A stretch of DNA of 64,000 bases, from NCBI RefSeq assembly GCF_900168005.1, contig NZ_FUYP01000008.1, forward strand, positions 62,001-126,000. Direction: 5' to 3'. The translations under genes were made by a program, and so were the position numbers. The stretch comes from Sphingopyxis flava (GTDB taxonomy: Bacteria; Pseudomonadota; Alphaproteobacteria; Sphingomonadales; Sphingomonadaceae). Of the stretch, positions 16,594 to 22,327 are shown in pieces; position 1 is the stretch's first letter; each line of letters starts with the position of its first letter. The notes below the pieces were generated by a model that had not been told where the DNA came from, did not search any database, and was given only the letters and a program-made list of their open reading frames with translations.

Positions 16594-17622
16594 CTATTGA
16601 TTGAGCCCATGCTTCTTCAGGGCGTGGCGGATCTGGTCGTAACTGAGCCCCAGTGCCTCCGCTGCGACCTTCTGATTGTAGCGGCAGCGCGCCATCGTAT
16701 CGGCGAGGATCTGCCGCTCATAGCTGTCGACCGCTGCGCGAAGGTCGCTGACGGGCCCGAAGGGCGGCGCGGCGGGAGCCGCGGGGGAGGGGGCGGGTGC
16801 AGATGCGGGCGCCGCGCCCTCCTTTTGCCTTGGGCGGTGGGCGGGCTGCCAGGGGCTTGCGAACGGGTCGAAGCTCAGCGCGTCGACGGGCCTTGCAGGA
16901 TCGGGCCAGCGATAGATAGCACGTTCGATTACGTTCCGAAGCTCGCGAACATTGCCCGGCCAGTCGTGACCCTCCATCTGCGCGAGTGCGCGCGGGCCGA
17001 AGCCGGGCCATTCCTCCCACCCGAGCACCGCCGCCATGCGCTGCCCGAAATAGGTTGCAAGCACCTCAATGTCGCCCTCGCGGGCGCGCAAGGGGGGCAG
17101 GGTGATGACCTCGAACGACAAGCGGTCGAGCAGGTCTGCGCGAAAGCGGTTCTCCTCGACAAGCGCCGGAAGATGCTCATTGGTCGCCGCGACAATGCGC
17201 ACGTCGACGCGGATCGGGCGCGATGAGCCAACGCGGGTTACCTCGCCATATTCGACCGCGCGGAGCAGCCGCTCCTGCGCCGCCATCGACATTGTCGCAA
17301 GCTCGTCGAGGAACAATGTTCCGCCGTCCGCCTCTTCGAAGCGCCCGGCGCGACTGCGCGCCGCCCCGGTGAAAGCGCCAGCCTCGTGCCCGAACAGCTC
17401 CGATTCGATCAGCGTCTCGGGCATCGCTGCGCAATTCATGATCAGATAGGGTTTGTCCCAGCGCGCCGACAGGCGGTGGAGGCGCTCGGCGATCAATTCC
17501 TTGCCGGTGCCGCGCTCGCCGATGACGAGCACTGGACGGTCGAGCGCGGCAGCCTGGCTCGCGCGTTCGACCGCATCTTGAAAGGCCGCCGATTGGCCGA
17601 TGAACTGCGTCTCGCGCTCCAT
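16594..17622 (-). CDS. pspF: Phage shock protein operon activator PspF (sigma-54 enhancer-binding protein)
   Basis: 342 residues. The AAA+ domain has GERGTGKE (Walker A), ESELFGHEAGAFTGA with the sigma-54-contacting GAFTGA loop, GGTLFLDELATM (Walker B) and DWPGNVRELRNVIERA. A Pro/Ala linker (about 265-295) precedes a Fis-type helix-turn-helix (YNQKVAAEALGLSYDQIRHAL). There is no N-terminal receiver domain, as in PspF, which is held inactive by PspA. It is divergent from the psp operon with its sigma-54 promoter. Confidence 0.95.
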   Translation of the reverse strand: MERETQFIGQSAAFQDAVERASQAAALDRPVLVIGERGTGKELIAERLHRLSARWDKPYLIMNCAAMPETLIESELFGHEAGAFTGAARSRAGRFEEADGGTLFLDELATMSMAAQERLLRAVEYGEVTRVGSSRPIRVDVRIVAATNEHLPALVEENRFRADLLDRLSFEVITLPPLRAREGDIEVLATYFGQRMAAVLGWEEWPGFGPRALAQMEGHDWPGNVRELRNVIERAIYRWPDPARPVDALSFDPFASPWQPAHRPRQKEGAAPASAPAPSPAAPAAPPFGPVSDLRAAVDSYERQILADTMARCRYNQKVAAEALGLSYDQIRHALKKHGLNQ

Positions 17623-17631
17623 TCCCAATGA

Positions 17632-17658
17632 TTGGCAAAATTTCCCGCTCGTTGGCAA
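17632..17658. promoter_or_regulatory. Tandem TTGGCAA repeats, candidate PspF upstream activating sites
   Basis: TTGGCAA occurs at 17632-17638 and again at 17652-17658, exactly 20 bp apart (two helical turns). They lie 64-90 bp upstream of the sigma-54 promoter and just upstream of pspF, where enhancer sites for PspF would be expected. The repeats are seen; the role is inference. Confidence 0.45.
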
Positions 17659-17721
17659 GGCAAATCGTGCGCGGACCGGCACCGGAGAGAATATTCGGAG
17701 TTTTTCCGGCCTTCTGGCCAA

Positions 17722-17738
17722 TTGGCACACCCCCTGCA
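17722..17738 (+). promoter_or_regulatory. Sigma-54 promoter of the psp operon
   Basis: TTGGCACACCCCCTGCA matches the sigma-54 consensus, with GG (-24) and GC (-12) exactly 10 bp apart. Transcription would start near 17750, about 50 bp before the 56-codon ORF. The adjacent divergent pspF makes this assignment strong. Confidence 0.85.
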
Positions 17739-17798
17739 TATCGATTGCCGAACCGGCACGACGGTGTGTCGGAGCAGCGAGAACAGGAAGGTTGACCC

Positions 17799-17969
17799 AT
17801 GAAAACGACGTTTGCCCAAGCCGCTACTTTCGCGCTCAGCGCGGTCGGAGCATTGGCCATCCTCGTGGGCGTGATCGACCAGCCGCAAATCGCCTTCAGC
17901 GCCGGACACCCCGTCGGCGTCCTGGCGGTGACCGCTGCAGCGTCCCCGGCGGTCAGTCCTTTGGCCTGA
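17799..17969 (+). CDS. 56-residue membrane or exported peptide, first ORF of psp operon
   Basis: The ORF starts with ATG after AGGAAGG (7 nt spacing) and is the first ORF behind the sigma-54 promoter. The protein begins MKTTFAQAATFALSAVGALA and has one hydrophobic stretch (about 9-26), then a stretch of Ala, Val and Pro. It could be a small membrane protein, a secreted peptide or a leader peptide. A perfect 13-bp hairpin with a T-run lies 6 bp after its stop. I do not recognise a family. Confidence 0.65.
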   Translation: MKTTFAQAATFALSAVGALAILVGVIDQPQIAFSAGHPVGVLAVTAAASPAVSPLA

Positions 17970-17975
17970 CCGGCT

Positions 17976-18025
17976 CTGGTGCCGGGGCACTCTCCCCCTT
18001 GCCCCGCCCCGGCACCAGCATTTTT
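17976..18025 (+). terminator. Terminator-like hairpin between the small ORF and pspA
   Basis: CTGGTGCCGGGGC (17976-17988) pairs perfectly over 13 bp with 18006-18018, with a 17-nt loop, and is followed by CATTTTTC. This is a near-ideal intrinsic terminator, yet it lies inside the psp operon, 35 bp before the pspA ATG. It could be an attenuator, a partial terminator or an mRNA stabiliser. Confidence 0.7.
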
Positions 18026-18059
18026 CAAGGTCTCAAGAGTTTCGACAGGAGTTAGTAAA

Positions 18060-18722
18060 ATGGGTATTTTCTCACGGACCCGCGATATCATTGCCGCCAA
18101 CGTCACCGACCTGCTCGACCGCGCGGAGGATCCCGAAAAGATGATCCGCCAGATCATCTTCGAGATGAACGAGACGCTGGTCGAAGTTCGCGCCTCGGCC
18201 GCGCGCACGATCGCGGACCAGAAGGAGATGCGCCGTCATATCGCCAAGCTCGAAGGCCTGCAGGATAGCTGGAAGGAAAAGGCGGAGCTCGCGCTGTCGA
18301 AGGACCGCGAAGACCTCGCGACCGCGGCGCTGATCGAAAAGCAGAAGGCCGGCGACATGGCCGAGCGGCTGAAGGCCGAGATTGCCGTCCTCGACGATTC
18401 GCTGAAGGGATATGAGGCCGACATCGCCAAGTTGCAGAAGAAGCTTTCGGAGGCGCGGGCGCGCCAGGCGAGCGTTGTGAACCGCCTCGAAAGCGCGGAG
18501 AACCGCTACAAGCTGCGCGAAATGACCAACGGCGACCGTGTCGAAGATGCCTTCTCGCGCTTTGAAATGCTCGAACGCCGCGTCGACGAAGCCGAGGGCC
18601 GTGCGGAAGCGCTGGGCCTGGGCTACAAGAAGTCGCTCGATGACGAAATCGCCGAGCTGCAGGCAGCTGACAAGGTCGCCGACGAACTCGCCGCGCTCAA
18701 GGCTGCGCAGGGCAAGAAATAA
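18060..18722 (+). CDS. pspA: Phage shock protein A
   Basis: 220 residues. MGIFSRTRDIIAANVTDLLDRAEDPEKM is the amphipathic N-terminal helix plus the conserved DPEK signature, followed by long coiled coils across the whole length (PspA/IM30, ESCRT-III-like). PspA binds stressed inner membrane and also inhibits PspF. AGGAG lies 9 nt before the ATG. The gene follows the terminator-like hairpin at 17976-18025 and is followed 12 bp later by pspB. Confidence 0.97.
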   Translation: MGIFSRTRDIIAANVTDLLDRAEDPEKMIRQIIFEMNETLVEVRASAARTIADQKEMRRHIAKLEGLQDSWKEKAELALSKDREDLATAALIEKQKAGDMAERLKAEIAVLDDSLKGYEADIAKLQKKLSEARARQASVVNRLESAENRYKLREMTNGDRVEDAFSRFEMLERRVDEAEGRAEALGLGYKKSLDDEIAELQAADKVADELAALKAAQGKK

Positions 18723-18734
18723 GGAGCCCGACCG

Positions 18735-19010
18735 ATGGAAGACATCATCATCGTCCCGATCGTCATCGGTACGCTCTTCCTCGGTCTGCCTTGGCTGATC
18801 CTCCACTACATCACCAAGTGGAAACAGGCCAAGACGCTGACCGGCGAGGACGAGCAACTGCTCGACGAACTCTACGACACGGCCCGGAGGCTCGAGAACC
18901 GCCTCCATACCGTGGAACGCATCATCAGCGCCGACCATCCCGACTTCCGCCCCGCGGTGCGCAGCGATGAGGACCTGGCGCAGCTCGAAAATACAAACAG
19001 GAGGAACTGA
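18735..19010 (+). CDS. pspB: Phage shock protein B
   Basis: 91 residues. One TM helix (about 4-25, IIIVPIVIGTLFLGLPWLIL) is followed by KWKQAKTLTGEDEQLLDELY and a coiled coil ending RLHTVERIISADHPDF, the PspB signature (E. coli ends in a similar ILDAEHPNW). PspB acts with PspC to relieve PspA inhibition of PspF. It overlaps neither neighbour; pspC starts 1 bp after its stop. Confidence 0.95.
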   Translation: MEDIIIVPIVIGTLFLGLPWLILHYITKWKQAKTLTGEDEQLLDELYDTARRLENRLHTVERIISADHPDFRPAVRSDEDLAQLENTNRRN

Positions 19011-19011
19011 G

Positions 19012-19392
19012 ATGTCTGCCAGCCGCACGAAATTCTATCTCGACAAGCAGAACGCCAAATGGAGCGGCGTGTGCGCAGGGATCGCGGACTATAGCGGCGT
19101 CGATGTCCTCTGGGTTCGCGTCGGCGCGGTCCTCCTGACGCTGATGGGTGGCTTCCCCTGGACGCTCATCGCCTACTGGATGGTCGCCTGGATGGGAACG
19201 CCCAAACCCTTCGCTCTCTATGGCTCGAATGAAGAAGCAAAATTCTGGCAGGGCGTGCGCTCGAACCCCAGCGCGTCGACACGCGACATCCGCTCGCGCT
19301 TCCGCGACATCGACCGCCGGCTCGCCGACATCGAGCTTTATTACACCAGCCACAACCGTCGCCTCGCCGACGAGATCGACGCGCTGCGCTGA
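19012..19392 (+). CDS. pspC: Phage shock protein C
   Basis: 126 residues from the ATG after AGGAGG. The PspC domain is FYLDKQNAKWSGVCAGIADY, VLWVRVGAVLLTLMGGFPW and LIAYWMVAWMGTPKP (two membrane segments, about 28-63). A cytosolic tail of about 60 residues follows: SRFRDIDRRLADIELYYTS and the C-terminus LADEIDALR. That last motif recurs at or near the ends of the small proteins downstream. Confidence 0.95.
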   Translation: MSASRTKFYLDKQNAKWSGVCAGIADYSGVDVLWVRVGAVLLTLMGGFPWTLIAYWMVAWMGTPKPFALYGSNEEAKFWQGVRSNPSASTRDIRSRFRDIDRRLADIELYYTSHNRRLADEIDALR

Positions 19393-19420
19393 GCGCAAGC
19401 GCGGGTCAGGGAGAAGAGAC

Positions 19421-19720
19421 ATGAGCATCGGTGCCCCTGCCTTCATCCTCGCAATCGTCGCCATGTCGATGATCGGATGGATGGCGACGACTTGGATGCG
19501 CGCGAAGCACGGCTATCCGGTCGAGAATGAATGGGGCGGCACGGTTCATCGAACCGCCCCCGACACTGATCGAAAAATCACGCTTCTTGAAAGCGATAAT
19601 GCCAAGCTAGCCGACCAGATCACGCGGCTCGAAGACCGGATTTCGGTGCTCGAGCGCATCGCGACAGAAGCGAACGGCGGCGCGGCCCAGCTCGCCGACC
19701 AGATCGAACGGCTGCGTTGA
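19421..19720 (+). CDS. PspB-like small membrane protein (psp paralogue 1)
   Basis: 99 residues. One TM helix (about 5-25), then TTWMRAKHGYPVENEWGG, a linker, and a coiled coil with RISVLERIATEA. The C-terminus is LADQIERLR. The TM plus E-R-I pattern copies PspB, and the end copies PspC. GGGAGAAGAG lies upstream of the ATG. It is in the psp operon 28 bp after pspC. Paralogue 2 shares the TTWxRxKxGYP segment. Function unknown; an envelope-stress role is inferred from context. Confidence 0.8.
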   Translation: MSIGAPAFILAIVAMSMIGWMATTWMRAKHGYPVENEWGGTVHRTAPDTDRKITLLESDNAKLADQITRLEDRISVLERIATEANGGAAQLADQIERLR

Positions 19721-19742
19721 GAGCTATGAGAGAGGATGGGAT

Positions 19743-20063
19743 ATGAACGCATTGACGGTCATCGGCGCCATTGCCCCGATCGTGACAATCATCACGGTAG
19801 TGGCGATCGGCGGCTGGGTCTTCACCACCTGGCTTCGCATCAAGAACGGTTATCCGCTCGACGGGGCCTGGGGGCAGGCGGTTTACCCCAAGACCAGCGA
19901 CGAGACGGTCGAGCGCGTCAAACTGCTCAGCCAGGAAAATGCCCAGCTTCGCGCCGAGCTAGGCTCGGTCAAGGACCGGCTGGCGGTGATCGAGCGCATC
20001 GTGACCGATGAAAGCCACCGCGTGGCGAGCGAAATCGAGGCGCTGCGGCGCCCGGCGAACTGA
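19743..20063 (+). CDS. PspB-like small membrane protein (psp paralogue 2)
   Basis: 106 residues. A TM helix (about 5-28) runs into TTWLRIKNGYPLDGAWGQAV, nearly the same juxtamembrane segment as paralogue 1. The coiled coil contains RLAVIERIVTDESHRVASEI and ends EALRRPAN. The ATG follows GAGAGAGGATGG. It probably arose by tandem duplication with paralogue 1. Function unknown. Confidence 0.8.
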   Translation: MNALTVIGAIAPIVTIITVVAIGGWVFTTWLRIKNGYPLDGAWGQAVYPKTSDETVERVKLLSQENAQLRAELGSVKDRLAVIERIVTDESHRVASEIEALRRPAN

Positions 20064-20074
20064 GGAGATAGACG

Positions 20075-20347
20075 ATGAACGGCACCTTTGTCCTCGGCTT
20101 CTTCTTCATCGTCGTCGGCATCCCGGTGATCTTCGGCATCGCCGCCGACATGTACAAGAGACACCTGAAATTCAAGGAACGGCAACTGACGGCGATCACC
20201 CATGAAGCCGCGGAAAGGGCGGCCCAATATGCGGCCCAGACCCAGCGGCTTGAGGAACGCGTCCGCGTCCTCGAACGCATCGTGACCGACAAGGGCATCG
20301 ACGTCGCCGACGAAATCGAAAGGCTGCGCGACGCGCCGCTCAACTGA
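20075..20347 (+). CDS. PspB-like small membrane protein (psp paralogue 3)
   Basis: 90 residues. TM helix about 4-25 (FVLGFFFIVVGIPVIFGIAA), a basic juxtamembrane patch YKRHLKFKERQ, then the coiled coil RVRVLERIVTDKGIDVADEI ending ERLRDAPLN. It lacks the GYP segment of paralogues 1 and 2. GAGGAG lies 7 nt upstream of the ATG. It lies 11 bp after paralogue 2. Confidence 0.8.
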   Translation: MNGTFVLGFFFIVVGIPVIFGIAADMYKRHLKFKERQLTAITHEAAERAAQYAAQTQRLEERVRVLERIVTDKGIDVADEIERLRDAPLN

Positions 20348-20381
20348 AAAACAACAAGAATCAGGCGAAAGGATCTTCCCC

Positions 20382-20645
20382 ATGAACCCCTTTGAAATGG
20401 TCATCGGCATCGTCCTCATCGTGACGATCGGCAGCATCGTCCGCGCGAAGTACGGCGTGCGGCGCGACCATCGCGGCGGCGAGTATTTCGTCGGCCAGGA
20501 CACTGCCGAGACCAAGGCGCTGCAGGCCGAGATCCGCGCGCTCAAGGAGCGCATCCAGGTTCTCGAACGCATCGCCACCGATCACAACCGGGCCGCCACC
20601 CTCGACGAAGAGATCGAGAAACTGCGCGACCGGTCTCTCCCGTAA
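20382..20645 (+). CDS. PspB-like small membrane protein (psp paralogue 4)
   Basis: 87 residues. TM helix about 5-21 (EMVIGIVLIVTIGSIV), then RAKYGVRRDHRGGEYFVG and a coiled coil with RIQVLERIATDHNRAATLDE ending EIEKLRDRSLP. It keeps both the E-R-I-A-T-D motif and the terminal EIxxLR motif. It follows paralogue 3 by 34 bp. Confidence 0.8.
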   Translation: MNPFEMVIGIVLIVTIGSIVRAKYGVRRDHRGGEYFVGQDTAETKALQAEIRALKERIQVLERIATDHNRAATLDEEIEKLRDRSLP

Positions 20646-20668
20646 CGCGACGAAGAAGGAGCCGACCC

Positions 20669-20923
20669 ATGGCCGCCATAACGTCCGACATCAGCATAAA
20701 TCTCATCACTGCCGCGATTGCGCTGAGCGCGCTCACCATCATCAGCCTTGTCGCGCTGCGCGGCTGGCGCGACTGGATCCAGCTCAAGCGCGAGGAACTC
20801 GCCGCGGGCCGCGCCCCGGCGCAGGAGGCGAGCACACAGCATGCCGGATCGCGCATCGAGATCGCCGACCTTAAGGAACGGCTGCGCAAGCTTGAGGCCA
20901 TCGCTGCTGGCGTAGATCTTTAG
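20669..20923 (+). CDS. PspB-like small membrane protein (psp paralogue 5)
   Basis: 84 residues. TM helix about 10-32 (INLITAAIALSALTIISLVA), then RGWRDWIQLKREELAAGR and a short coiled coil RIEIADLKERLRKLEAIAAG. It is the most diverged copy: E-R-I has become E-A-I and the EIxxLR tail is missing. AAGGAG lies upstream of the ATG. It is the last gene of the psp run; no clear terminator follows before sufE. Confidence 0.75.
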   Translation: MAAITSDISINLITAAIALSALTIISLVALRGWRDWIQLKREELAAGRAPAQEASTQHAGSRIEIADLKERLRKLEAIAAGVDL

Positions 20924-21071
20924 GAGCTCGCAGGATCGTCCGTACCAGGCGAAGGCGAGGCGCCGGCAGCCAGCCGCTCTGTCCACCGCCTGCCGCGCCT
21001 TCGTCCAGCCCGCATCGCGAAATGCCGGGGCTATCTTCCCACCGGACGTCAAATCTGCCACTGCCGCGCCT

Positions 21072-21479
21072 ATGCGCAGCCTCTCCGACATTTTCGACGA
21101 ATATGATTTCCTCGACGGCGACGATCGCTATCGCCTCCTGATCGAACTGGGGCGCGAGCTCGAACCGATGCCCGATGCGCTCAAGACCGACGCGACGCTG
21201 GTGCGGGGCTGCTCGGCGAGCGTCTGGGTCTATCCGGTGCCGCGCGACGATGGCCGGCTCCACTTTCTCGCCGACAGCAATGCCGCGATCACCAAGGGCA
21301 TTGTCGCGCTGGTCCTCGCCGCGGTGCAGGACAAGCCCGCGTCCGAAGTCGCCGGCATGGACATCGCCGCCGCGCTCGCCCCCTTTGAGCTTACACGCCA
21401 GCTTTCGTCGAACCGCACCCAGGGCGTGCCCAACATGATCGCGCTGGTTCAGGATACCGCCCGCCGCCTCTCGAGCTGA
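21072..21479 (+). CDS. sufE: SufE-family cysteine desulfuration protein
   Basis: 135 residues. DYRYRLLIELGREL-like (here DDRYRLLIELGREL) and VRGCSASVWVYP contain the SufE fold and its sulfur-accepting cysteine; GIVALVLAAVQDKP and LSSNRTQGVPNMI complete it. SufE takes persulfide sulfur from SufS during Fe-S cluster assembly. No suf operon is present, which is common for a stand-alone sufE. It lies 148 bp after the psp genes; upstream sequence shows no gene. Confidence 0.95.
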   Translation: MRSLSDIFDEYDFLDGDDRYRLLIELGRELEPMPDALKTDATLVRGCSASVWVYPVPRDDGRLHFLADSNAAITKGIVALVLAAVQDKPASEVAGMDIAAALAPFELTRQLSSNRTQGVPNMIALVQDTARRLSS

Positions 21480-21521
21480 CCGCGCGGCCGGGTGCCCGGC
21501 CGAGCCGCTGTCCCAACGAAA

Positions 21522-21547
21522 AAGGGCGGCCCCGCAGGACCGCCCTT
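21522..21547. terminator. Bidirectional terminator between sufE and the cold-shock gene
   Basis: AAGGGCGG (21522-21529) pairs with CCGCCCTT (21540-21547) across 10 nt. On the minus strand it ends in five T residues (reverse of 21519-21523 A-run), serving the cold-shock gene; on the plus strand it can end sufE. A GC palindrome, CGGCCGGG/CCCGGCCG, lies at 21485-21502. Confidence 0.75.
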
Positions 21548-21571
21548 CGTCTTGTCGCTGGCGCCGCGGGC

Positions 21572-22327
21572 TCAATCGCTCGCGGGCTGAAGGTTCACCG
21601 CCGCGAATTTGCCGCGGTCGTCGACCTCGATGTCAAAGGCAACGCGGTCGCCCTCTTCGAGGCCCGCCATGCCGGCGCGCTGCACCGCGCTGATGTGGAC
21701 AAAGGCGTCCGCCTGCCCATCGTCGCGCGCAATGAAGCCGAAGCCCTTCGTCGTGTTGAAGAATTTGACTGTGCCCGAAGTGCGCTCGCCGGTCAGCTGA
21801 CGCCGGCCGCGCGCACCGCCGGGGCGATCCTCGCGCTGACGCGGCGAGAAGTCCTCGACCGGTAGCGGTTCGCCTTCGATCTTGAGGTCGATCGCCGACA
21901 CCTTGCCGTTGCGTTCGACGAGCGTGAAGGCAAGCGGCTGCCCCGAGGCAAGGCCCTGCAGACCGGCCTGCTCGACTGCGCTGATATGCACGAACACATC
22001 TTCGCCGCCATCGTCGCGGGCGACGAAGCCGAAGCCCTTCGAGGGATTGAAGAATTTGACCGTGCCCTGGCCCTCGCCGACAACCTGCGCCGGCATGCCG
22101 CCGCCGCGTCCACCGCCGAAGCCGCCGCGATCGCCGCCGCCGAAGCCGCCACGATCACCGCCGAAGCCCCCGCGGTCGCTATAGCCGCCGCTGCGGTCGC
22201 CATAACCGCCGCGCGGGCCGCCGAAGCTATCGCCGCCGTAAGGCGACGGTTCGAAGCTGTCGAAATTTCCGAAATCATCGCGCTTACCGCGTCCCCGATG
22301 GCCACGGCGATCCTTGTTGAAACTCAT
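21572..22327 (-). CDS. Double cold-shock-domain protein with Gly/Arg/Phe-rich N-terminus
   Basis: 251 residues. Residues 1-78 are low complexity, with DRGGFGG-type repeats. Two cold-shock domains follow, about 88-150 (GTVKFFNPSKGFGFVARDD, DVFVHISAV) and 183-250 (GTVKFFNTTKGFGFIARDD, DAFVHISAV), each with intact RNP1 and RNP2. Two-domain CSPs are usual in alphaproteobacteria; they bind single-stranded RNA or DNA. The RGG/FGG-rich head looks like eukaryotic RNA-binding low-complexity domains. A structured stretch lies in the 261-bp upstream region. Confidence 0.93.
   Translation of the reverse strand: MSFNKDRRGHRGRGKRDDFGNFDSFEPSPYGGDSFGGPRGGYGDRSGGYSDRGGFGGDRGGFGGGDRGGFGGGRGGGMPAQVVGEGQGTVKFFNPSKGFGFVARDDGGEDVFVHISAVEQAGLQGLASGQPLAFTLVERNGKVSAIDLKIEGEPLPVEDFSPRQREDRPGGARGRRQLTGERTSGTVKFFNTTKGFGFIARDDGQADAFVHISAVQRAGMAGLEEGDRVAFDIEVDDRGKFAAVNLQPASD

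Follow-up and report, generated by a model that had tools for sequence, protein, structure and literature searches.

A family-wide array of small membrane proteins, most with putative PspB/PspC-type tails, in the psp operon of Sphingopyxis flava and its relatives

Membrane components of the phage shock protein (Psp) response include PspB, PspC and, in Gammaproteobacteria, the small accessory membrane proteins PspG and PspD. In Escherichia coli, PspB is reported to bind both itself and PspC, whereas for PspC two topologies are considered possible and a leucine zipper is required for interaction with PspA (PMC3068692). In Yersinia, another study reports that PspBC alone counteract secretin toxicity (PMC5596341). 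It has also been mentioned, in one sentence and with one accession as an example (AOL22920.1), that PspB duplicates occur in the psp operon, and, according to the same text, the C-terminal part of PspC can be a divergent PspB (Ravi et al., 2024, PMC11237479). A study of how Psp proteins are distributed reported paralogues of PspA and PspC, and its passages on the subject describe no PspB array (PMC9239133). Here, we analyzed a 64,000-nucleotide stretch of DNA from Sphingopyxis flava (contig NZ_FUYP01000008.1, positions 62,001 to 126,000; hereafter the window), in which pspA, pspB and pspC are followed by five intact open reading frames (ORFs) on the + strand, designated classes A to E (copies 1 to 5), and then by a sufE-like gene. 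On sequence grounds, and with slightly better than even confidence, we suggest that A–E may be membrane subunits that dock to PspA and PspBC, are induced together with them, and differ in function according to their membrane anchors.

Like PspB (PF06667/TIGR02976), the five proteins combine a single predicted N-terminal transmembrane segment, a predicted cytoplasmic helix and an ERI-type motif, and are encoded in the psp operon. However, they fall below the PspB family cut-offs, and the PWlilHYxTKWK segment seen in PspB of the window's family is absent from them; moreover, A–D have an additional EIxxLR end, and class E has a low-confidence linker and the end RKLEAIAAGVDL. With the tail of PspC (about positions 39–121 of TIGR02978), A–D share a transmembrane segment and a tail closing in EIxxLR, but none of A–E matched the PspC domain PF04024 at E≤1. 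PspG and PspD can be likened to them by description only, and PspG is encoded outside the psp operon. The passages of Ravi et al. (2024) on these proteins mention neither a five-class array nor an order of classes, an exchange of tails or relatives encoded singly, and no description of the five-class array, tail exchange or solitary genes was found in the parts of the open-licence literature that were accessible. What is new is the apparent modularity of the tail, together with solitary, unlinked genes for transmembrane-tail proteins that co-occur with PspB. PspB duplicates in the operon were already published; an earlier note on this DNA had stated that known Psp systems have one or two such proteins.

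A conserved array downstream of pspC

In the window, pspF lies divergently on the - strand, and pspF, pspA, pspB and pspC each scored over the curated cut-off in Pfam/TIGRFAM profile searches (Table 1). Intergenic spacing across the array is 11–34 bp, and a purine-rich stretch precedes every start. The coordinates, lengths and motifs that the earlier note had assigned to the five genes were confirmed from the ORFs and the sequence: VLERI occurs in copies 1, 3 and 4, VIERI in copy 2 and KLEAI in copy 5, and the TTWxRxKxGYP segment common to copies 1 and 2 reads TTWMRAKHGYP and TTWLRIKNGYP, respectively. In all five proteins hydrophobicity over 19 residues peaks near the N-terminus, in a stretch with no lysine or arginine on its N side and two to five within 15 residues on its C side; this charge bias predicts that the long helix is cytoplasmic. 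AlphaFold models gave helices 3–73 and 77–86 for class C (mean predicted local distance difference test score (pLDDT) 73.3, predicted template modelling score (pTM) 0.29) and helices 2–47 and 60–79 for class E (mean pLDDT 81.8, pTM 0.44). Among solved structures, the window's PspB and PspC had no match at E≤1, and the seven matches of class C (E 0.1–0.94) were all unrelated proteins.

To follow the array through the family, we collected 143 loci, chosen by PspC or E matches: the window, 80 named loci (the best 80 of 219), 55 E-positive genomes (from 62, after exclusion of the window's own genome, five congeners and G155), six second-locus partners and genome G091. Dropping two exact duplicates left 141 distinct loci, and dropping 16 loci without sufE left 125 complete loci spanning pspC to sufE, in which array genes were counted by domain envelopes. 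All 125 contained pspB and one to seven array-class genes between pspC and sufE (one gene in 1 locus, two in 2, three in 9, four in 24, five in 68, six in 18 and seven in 3; mode five). Gene order was conserved as well: class E was terminal in all 119 loci having it, and ABCDE was the commonest order (54 of 125), followed by CABCDE (11). The named loci came from Sphingopyxis, Sphingomonas, Sphingobium, Rhizorhapis, Stakelama and Sphingosinithalassobacter. Within the genus, copy 3 had a match (E≤0.001) in all but one of 40 genomes; in one of these 39, which is 88% complete, the match covers only part of the tail, and the genome without a match was 85% complete. The class E model (24 rows) matched 62 of 64 family genomes and none of 83 others in an order-level draw of 147 genomes, 65 of the misses being placed in other families by rank order; in a class-level draw of 289 genomes its four matches were all in the window's family. 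The two family genomes missed were G091 and G180, the latter without PspB at E≤0.01. Among 46–48 Sphingopyxis-type loci, the median pairwise ratio of nonsynonymous to synonymous substitution rates (dN/dS) was 0.17 for A, 0.24 for B, 0.36 for C, 0.27 for D and 0.17 for E, and 0.06–0.08 for pspA, pspB and pspC. Given this family-wide conservation and purifying selection, A–E are maintained genes under looser constraint than the psp core, and the tandem family proposed in the earlier note is real. Its suggestion that copies 1 and 2 arose by recent duplication is ruled out by the class distribution, since A and B are distinct classes found in 101 and 109 of the 125 loci, respectively, and in many genera.

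All five genes are linked to pspFABC downstream of a sigma54-type site. The only exact match to TGGCACNNNNNNTGCW in the window lies upstream of pspA (chance mean 0.21), and, of the 80 named loci, 64 have an exact TTGGCACNNNNNNTGC no more than 600 bp upstream of pspA; on the coding strand between pspC and sufE, it occurs in none of the 125 complete loci. A coding-strand scan of 17600–21600 revealed a sigma70-like site at 18042 and a terminator-like site at 17682, both upstream of the array, and no such site inside it. Because of the single promoter-like site and the tight spacing, A–E are probably co-induced with pspABC by PspF and sigma54.

Profile comparison related A–D to one another with HH probabilities of 98.5–99.9 over 75–91 columns (0.7–14.4 for mirrored targets). 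For A, B, C and D in turn, the values were 94.4, 94.7, 80.5 and 93.3 against the family's PspC (mirrored 4.6, 60.5, 3.5 and 5.1), 74.6, 76.2, 61.3 and 60.4 against other-lineage PspC, 89.6, 37.7, 95.1 and 93.2 against other-lineage PspB, and 30.9, 59.0, 75.7 and 16.2 against the family's PspB. Hence A and B score higher with PspC, C with other-lineage PspB, and D alike with both; a PspA coiled-coil control from the same loci gave at most 4.1 against A–E, PspB and PspC. Class E reached 91 with C and 92 with D, 32 with A and 14 with B, and only 0.8 and 5.9 with the family's and other-lineage PspB and 0.3 and 2.0 with the corresponding PspC. The shared consensus is R(I/V/L)..(V/L)(L/V)ERI.TD, followed in A–D by EI..LR, an end found in the consensus of neither PspB nor class E; the PspC tail consensus is RRLadiE.yYtS.N.RLadEId.LR. 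On the basis of the profile scores, the controls and this consensus, A–D are best called paralogues with a PspB/PspC-type tail, their kinship to PspB and the PspC tail appearing weaker than that among themselves, which agrees with the remark of Ravi et al. (2024) on divergent PspB in PspC. Class E would be a more distant member, linked only to C, D and the wider solitary family described below.

None of A–E passed the PspB cut-offs (25.6 bits for PF06667, 51.7 bits for TIGR02976), and PspB was the top-scoring Pfam family for none of the five. The best copy, C, reached 17.2 bits with PF06667 and 24.4 bits with TIGR02976 (E 2.6e-5), and matched positions 39–121 of TIGR02978 at 2.1e-5, all below cut-off; class E had no match to either PspB model at E≤1. 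Other coil families were likewise below cut-off, including Phage_holin_6_1 for C (18.3 bits, compared with 17.2 for PspB), DivIC for A and D (12.5 and 11.3 bits, cut-off 28.9) and FtsL_COG5462 for D (18.5 bits, cut-off 50). The description of all five as PspB-like in the earlier note thus stands only for A–D, in the weaker sense of a probable relationship beyond generic coil; A–D end in a PspC-type helix, and class E has no direct link to PspB.

Exchange of membrane segments and solitary relatives

Retention of the tail is seen in class C. In Sphingopyxis-type loci, two N-terminal types stand ahead of one kind of tail, and locus L063 has both next to each other. In a quick DNA tree of pspA plus pspF (45 rows; 16 of 42 inner branches unsupported), the class C type changes seven times, and the mixed-type groups supported by the Shimodaira–Hasegawa-like approximate likelihood ratio test include L022 with L061 (97) and L067 with the window and L070 (99). 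Types are also mixed in a tree of the class C tail DNA (138 bases), with nine changes; some tails (L027) are nearest to those of neighbouring species that have the other type, whereas others (L043) are not. Such a pattern could have arisen by domain exchange, by gene conversion of the tail or by loss of one member of an ancestral pair. The dN/dS of class C is 0.10 in the tail and 0.49 in the N-terminal part, the latter value being inflated by the alignment of two unlike N-terminal types. In four classes (B–E), selection is stricter on the tail than on the membrane part, which favours tail docking as a shared function.

A separate arrangement was found in G091, a family member with a 100% complete genome, whose locus holds pspA, a gene for a tail-less PspC of 88 amino acids (aa), C and D; pspC and C are 8 bp apart. 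Its D gene is the sole match to the PspB model in the genome (23.7 bits), and there is no pspB over cut-off. The tail thus looks modular, as it is kept in class C beside different membrane segments and occurs separately from a tail-less PspC in G091. Two loci of family f58 (L192 and L193) have two short genes after pspC with similar membrane segments, one with a PspC-type and the other with a PspB-type tail. In L193, the former matches TIGR02978 at 1.1e-6, below cut-off, and the latter passes PF06667 (39 bits, cut-off 25.6) and fails TIGR02976 (43.2 bits, cut-off 51.7). This pair looks like an independent array. Six genomes of the window's family (L230, L237, L239, L241, L246 and L254) have a second operon, pspA2-pspC2-E, without pspB, and in their other psp locus pspB and A–D-type genes without E. 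The idea that E replaces PspB, suggested by pspA-pspC-E in five g12 genomes and G169, was dropped, all six having pspB at another locus.

Relatives of the tail proteins also occur outside psp operons. A phylum-level search with TIGR02976 yielded weak second matches distant from pspB, and small transmembrane-tail genes were found singly (L280, L282, L284, L285 and L288), two in a row (L279) or as a pair (L278). In family f153, L278 (positions 1727-2209; 76 and 64 aa) and L283 each have two adjacent genes of this solitary kind at a distance of about 80 kb from pspB. A mixed solitary-gene model (A4; 15 rows, class D as the first row; threshold set by us at E≤1e-4) matched 52 of 398 genomes in a phylum draw, 19 in the window's family and 33 others. 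Six of the latter matches were pspB itself (G444, G778, G781, G795, G774 and G694) and were not counted; each of the remaining 27 genomes carries a short stand-alone gene that either lies on a different contig from pspB or is separated from it by about 79 kb or more. Outside the family, solitary genes were therefore present in 27 of 57 PspB-positive and none of 322 PspB-negative genomes (Fisher 9e-26, kinship uncorrected), or in 20 of 50 and none of 322 without the seven genomes that seeded A4 (7e-20, likewise uncorrected); G769 (50.5 bits, cut-off 51.7) was counted as PspB-negative. The 27 genomes span seven families, 13 of them in f183; solitary genes were found in none of 14 PspB-positive genomes of f192 and in one of nine of f196. 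Families f183 and f219 may be Gammaproteobacteria.

A profile of 37 solitary sequences scored 98.9–99.4 with A–D and 91.5 with E (mirrored at most 5.1), 96.5 and 71.2 with other-lineage and the family's PspB, and 95.1 and 26.5 with the corresponding PspC; the solitary family appears to bridge A–D, PspB and PspC. A second draw covered 64 genomes from the class to which G679 belongs; five were PspB-positive over cut-off, and A4 matched in four: the seed G679 itself, G868 (47 bits; the match lies within a frame of 287 aa some 0.5 kb past pspB and may be a PspC tail), the PspB-positive G822 (25.6 bits) and the PspB-negative G835 (23.7 bits). Sigma54-like sites were scored in 41 stretches upstream of genes collected for the solitary family, unmatched in base composition and including two true pspB genes of L286 and the second genes of pairs: 16 reached 8 of 12 positions (random 16.2%), 10 reached 9 (random 5.6%; binomial 7e-5), 4 reached 10 (random 1.3%; 0.0018) and none reached 11, several sites being more than 200 bp from the start. 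This enrichment is only suggestive. The two pspB genes of L286 (2360-2817, family f183; 77 and 75 aa) are an apparent true tandem duplicate.

Coordinates and neighbouring genes

Table 1. Features of the psp locus in the window, with the evidence for each
Feature	Position	Strand	Evidence or remark
pspF, divergent sigma54 activator	16594..17658	-	TIGR02974 471.8 bits, cut-off 443.55
sigma54 (-24/-12) promoter-like site	17722..17738	+	exact TGGCACNNNNNNTGCW match
pspA	18060..18722	+	TIGR02977 271.7 bits, cut-off 242.95
pspB	18735..19010	+	PF06667 98.3 bits, cut-off 25.6
pspC with C-terminal tail	19012..19392	+	TIGR02978 117.5 bits, cut-off 104
Tail protein class A (copy 1), 99 aa	19421..19720	+	paralogue of B, C, D; in 101/125 loci
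Tail protein class B (copy 2), 106 aa	19743..20063	+	paralogue of A, C, D; in 109/125 loci
Tail protein class C (copy 3), 90 aa	20075..20347	+	strongly conserved tail, switching membrane segment; in 114/125 loci
Tail protein class D (copy 4), 87 aa	20382..20645	+	paralogue of A, B, C; in 115/125 loci
Tail protein class E (copy 5), 84 aa	20669..20923	+	last gene of the array, C-terminus highly conserved in the alignment; in 119/125 loci

The sufE-like gene, named by eye, lies at 21072-21479 (+), 148 bp past the array, and is present in 125 of the 141 distinct family loci; most of the 16 loci without it stop short of sufE or are second loci. Between the sigma54 site and pspA, an ORF of 56 aa with a signal-peptide-like start (17799-17969, +) had 49 phmmer matches in the fetched loci, and similar short ORFs lie upstream of the second pspA in L230, L241 and L246; it might encode an exported psp-operon peptide. 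Further away, a gene that we take to encode ribosomal protein L21 (15257-15751, -) has a long Ala/Lys/Pro-rich C-terminal extension, and another at 21572-22327 (-) has a Gly/Arg-rich N-terminal region before what we presume to be two cold-shock domains.

Possible roles of the tail proteins

In our proposal, A–E would be inducible single-span inner-membrane proteins bearing relatives of the PspB/PspC regulatory tail, the N-terminus lying outside and the C-terminal helix on the cytoplasmic side. PspF and sigma54 would turn them on jointly with pspABC, and their tails would dock to the partners of the PspC tail, namely PspA and the PspBC complex. Each protein may then serve as an additional or substitute subunit, bringing PspA to the membrane and/or modulating the release of PspF, and its own membrane and juxtamembrane segment might set the place or membrane state in which it acts. 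Similar tails on other anchors from the same operon most simply suggest extra docking sites or alternative subunits.

Several observations weigh against this proposal. In class A, the tail and the remainder of the protein are equally constrained, and the last 42 codons of pspB and pspC are looser than the rest. A–E are below the PspB and PspC cut-offs, with other coil families scoring equally or better in Pfam; A–D reach only 60–76 with other-lineage PspC, the mirrored control of B against PspC is 60.5, and class E has no direct profile link to PspB or PspC. Only one to three array genes are present in 12 of the 125 loci, and the dN/dS of A–E is two to six times that of pspABC, so that single copies look dispensable. 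No pspF match was found in the 7.5 kb at the G091 locus, where regulation may simply be decaying. The co-occurrence of solitary genes with PspB is uncorrected for kinship, and one weak match in the second draw, which gave few and weak matches, fell in a PspB-negative genome (G835). Finally, an E. coli PspB leucine-zipper mutant is reported to keep PspC binding and to lose ArcB, and other partners are thus possible (PMC3068692).

On sequence grounds, the array may amplify, silence or protect. The extra tails might be silencers that occupy PspB/PspC coil to coil and hold the sensor off, as negative feedback or to raise its threshold. The paralogy of A–D and the operon data also fit this, and cytoplasmic interactions between PspB and PspC reportedly silence the response in Yersinia, to judge from the title of a paper; however, silencing by itself does not account for G091, where a tail-less PspC stands beside separate tails, or for the solitary unlinked members, although it is compatible with them, and we regard it as unlikely. 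About as improbable is that the array proteins protect the membrane directly, by stabilizing it or particular membrane proteins, with little part in the control of PspA and PspF. The action of PspBC alone against secretin toxicity (PMC5596341), the occurrence of E, in six genomes, next to a second pspA/pspC pair that lacks pspB, and the tail not being the more constrained part in pspB, pspC and A would suit such a role, whereas the tighter constraint on the tail in B–E, relative to the membrane part, argues against it. We give very little credence to the view that these are unrelated transmembrane-coil proteins, whether similar to FtsL/FtsB/DivIC or of another kind, which resemble PspB only as any coiled coil would. 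Weak matches under the cut-offs of FtsL, DivIC, holin and further coil families speak for it, but the profile matches are near full length, the mirrored and PspA-coil controls are low, and linkage to psp is fixed; for A–D such an origin is already disfavoured. In addition, the charge pattern predicts a cytoplasmic tail, the opposite of the topology of FtsB and FtsL.

Docking to PspA and PspBC can be placed in a wider frame, which we propose tentatively and with somewhat less than even confidence: PspB, the PspC tail, the A–E array and the solitary VLERIVTD genes would be one family of detachable Psp tails. The Psp membrane sensor of many PspB-bearing bacteria would then be combinatorial, with numerous anchors and a single common PspA/PspBC-docking tail, and the unlinked solitary genes would be Psp components that have been overlooked. 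In that case, a docking tail kept while its anchors multiply and exchange would amount to a natural swap experiment on the inputs of the Psp membrane sensor, and co-occurrence with PspB nominates unannotated genes outside psp operons as testable Psp partners.

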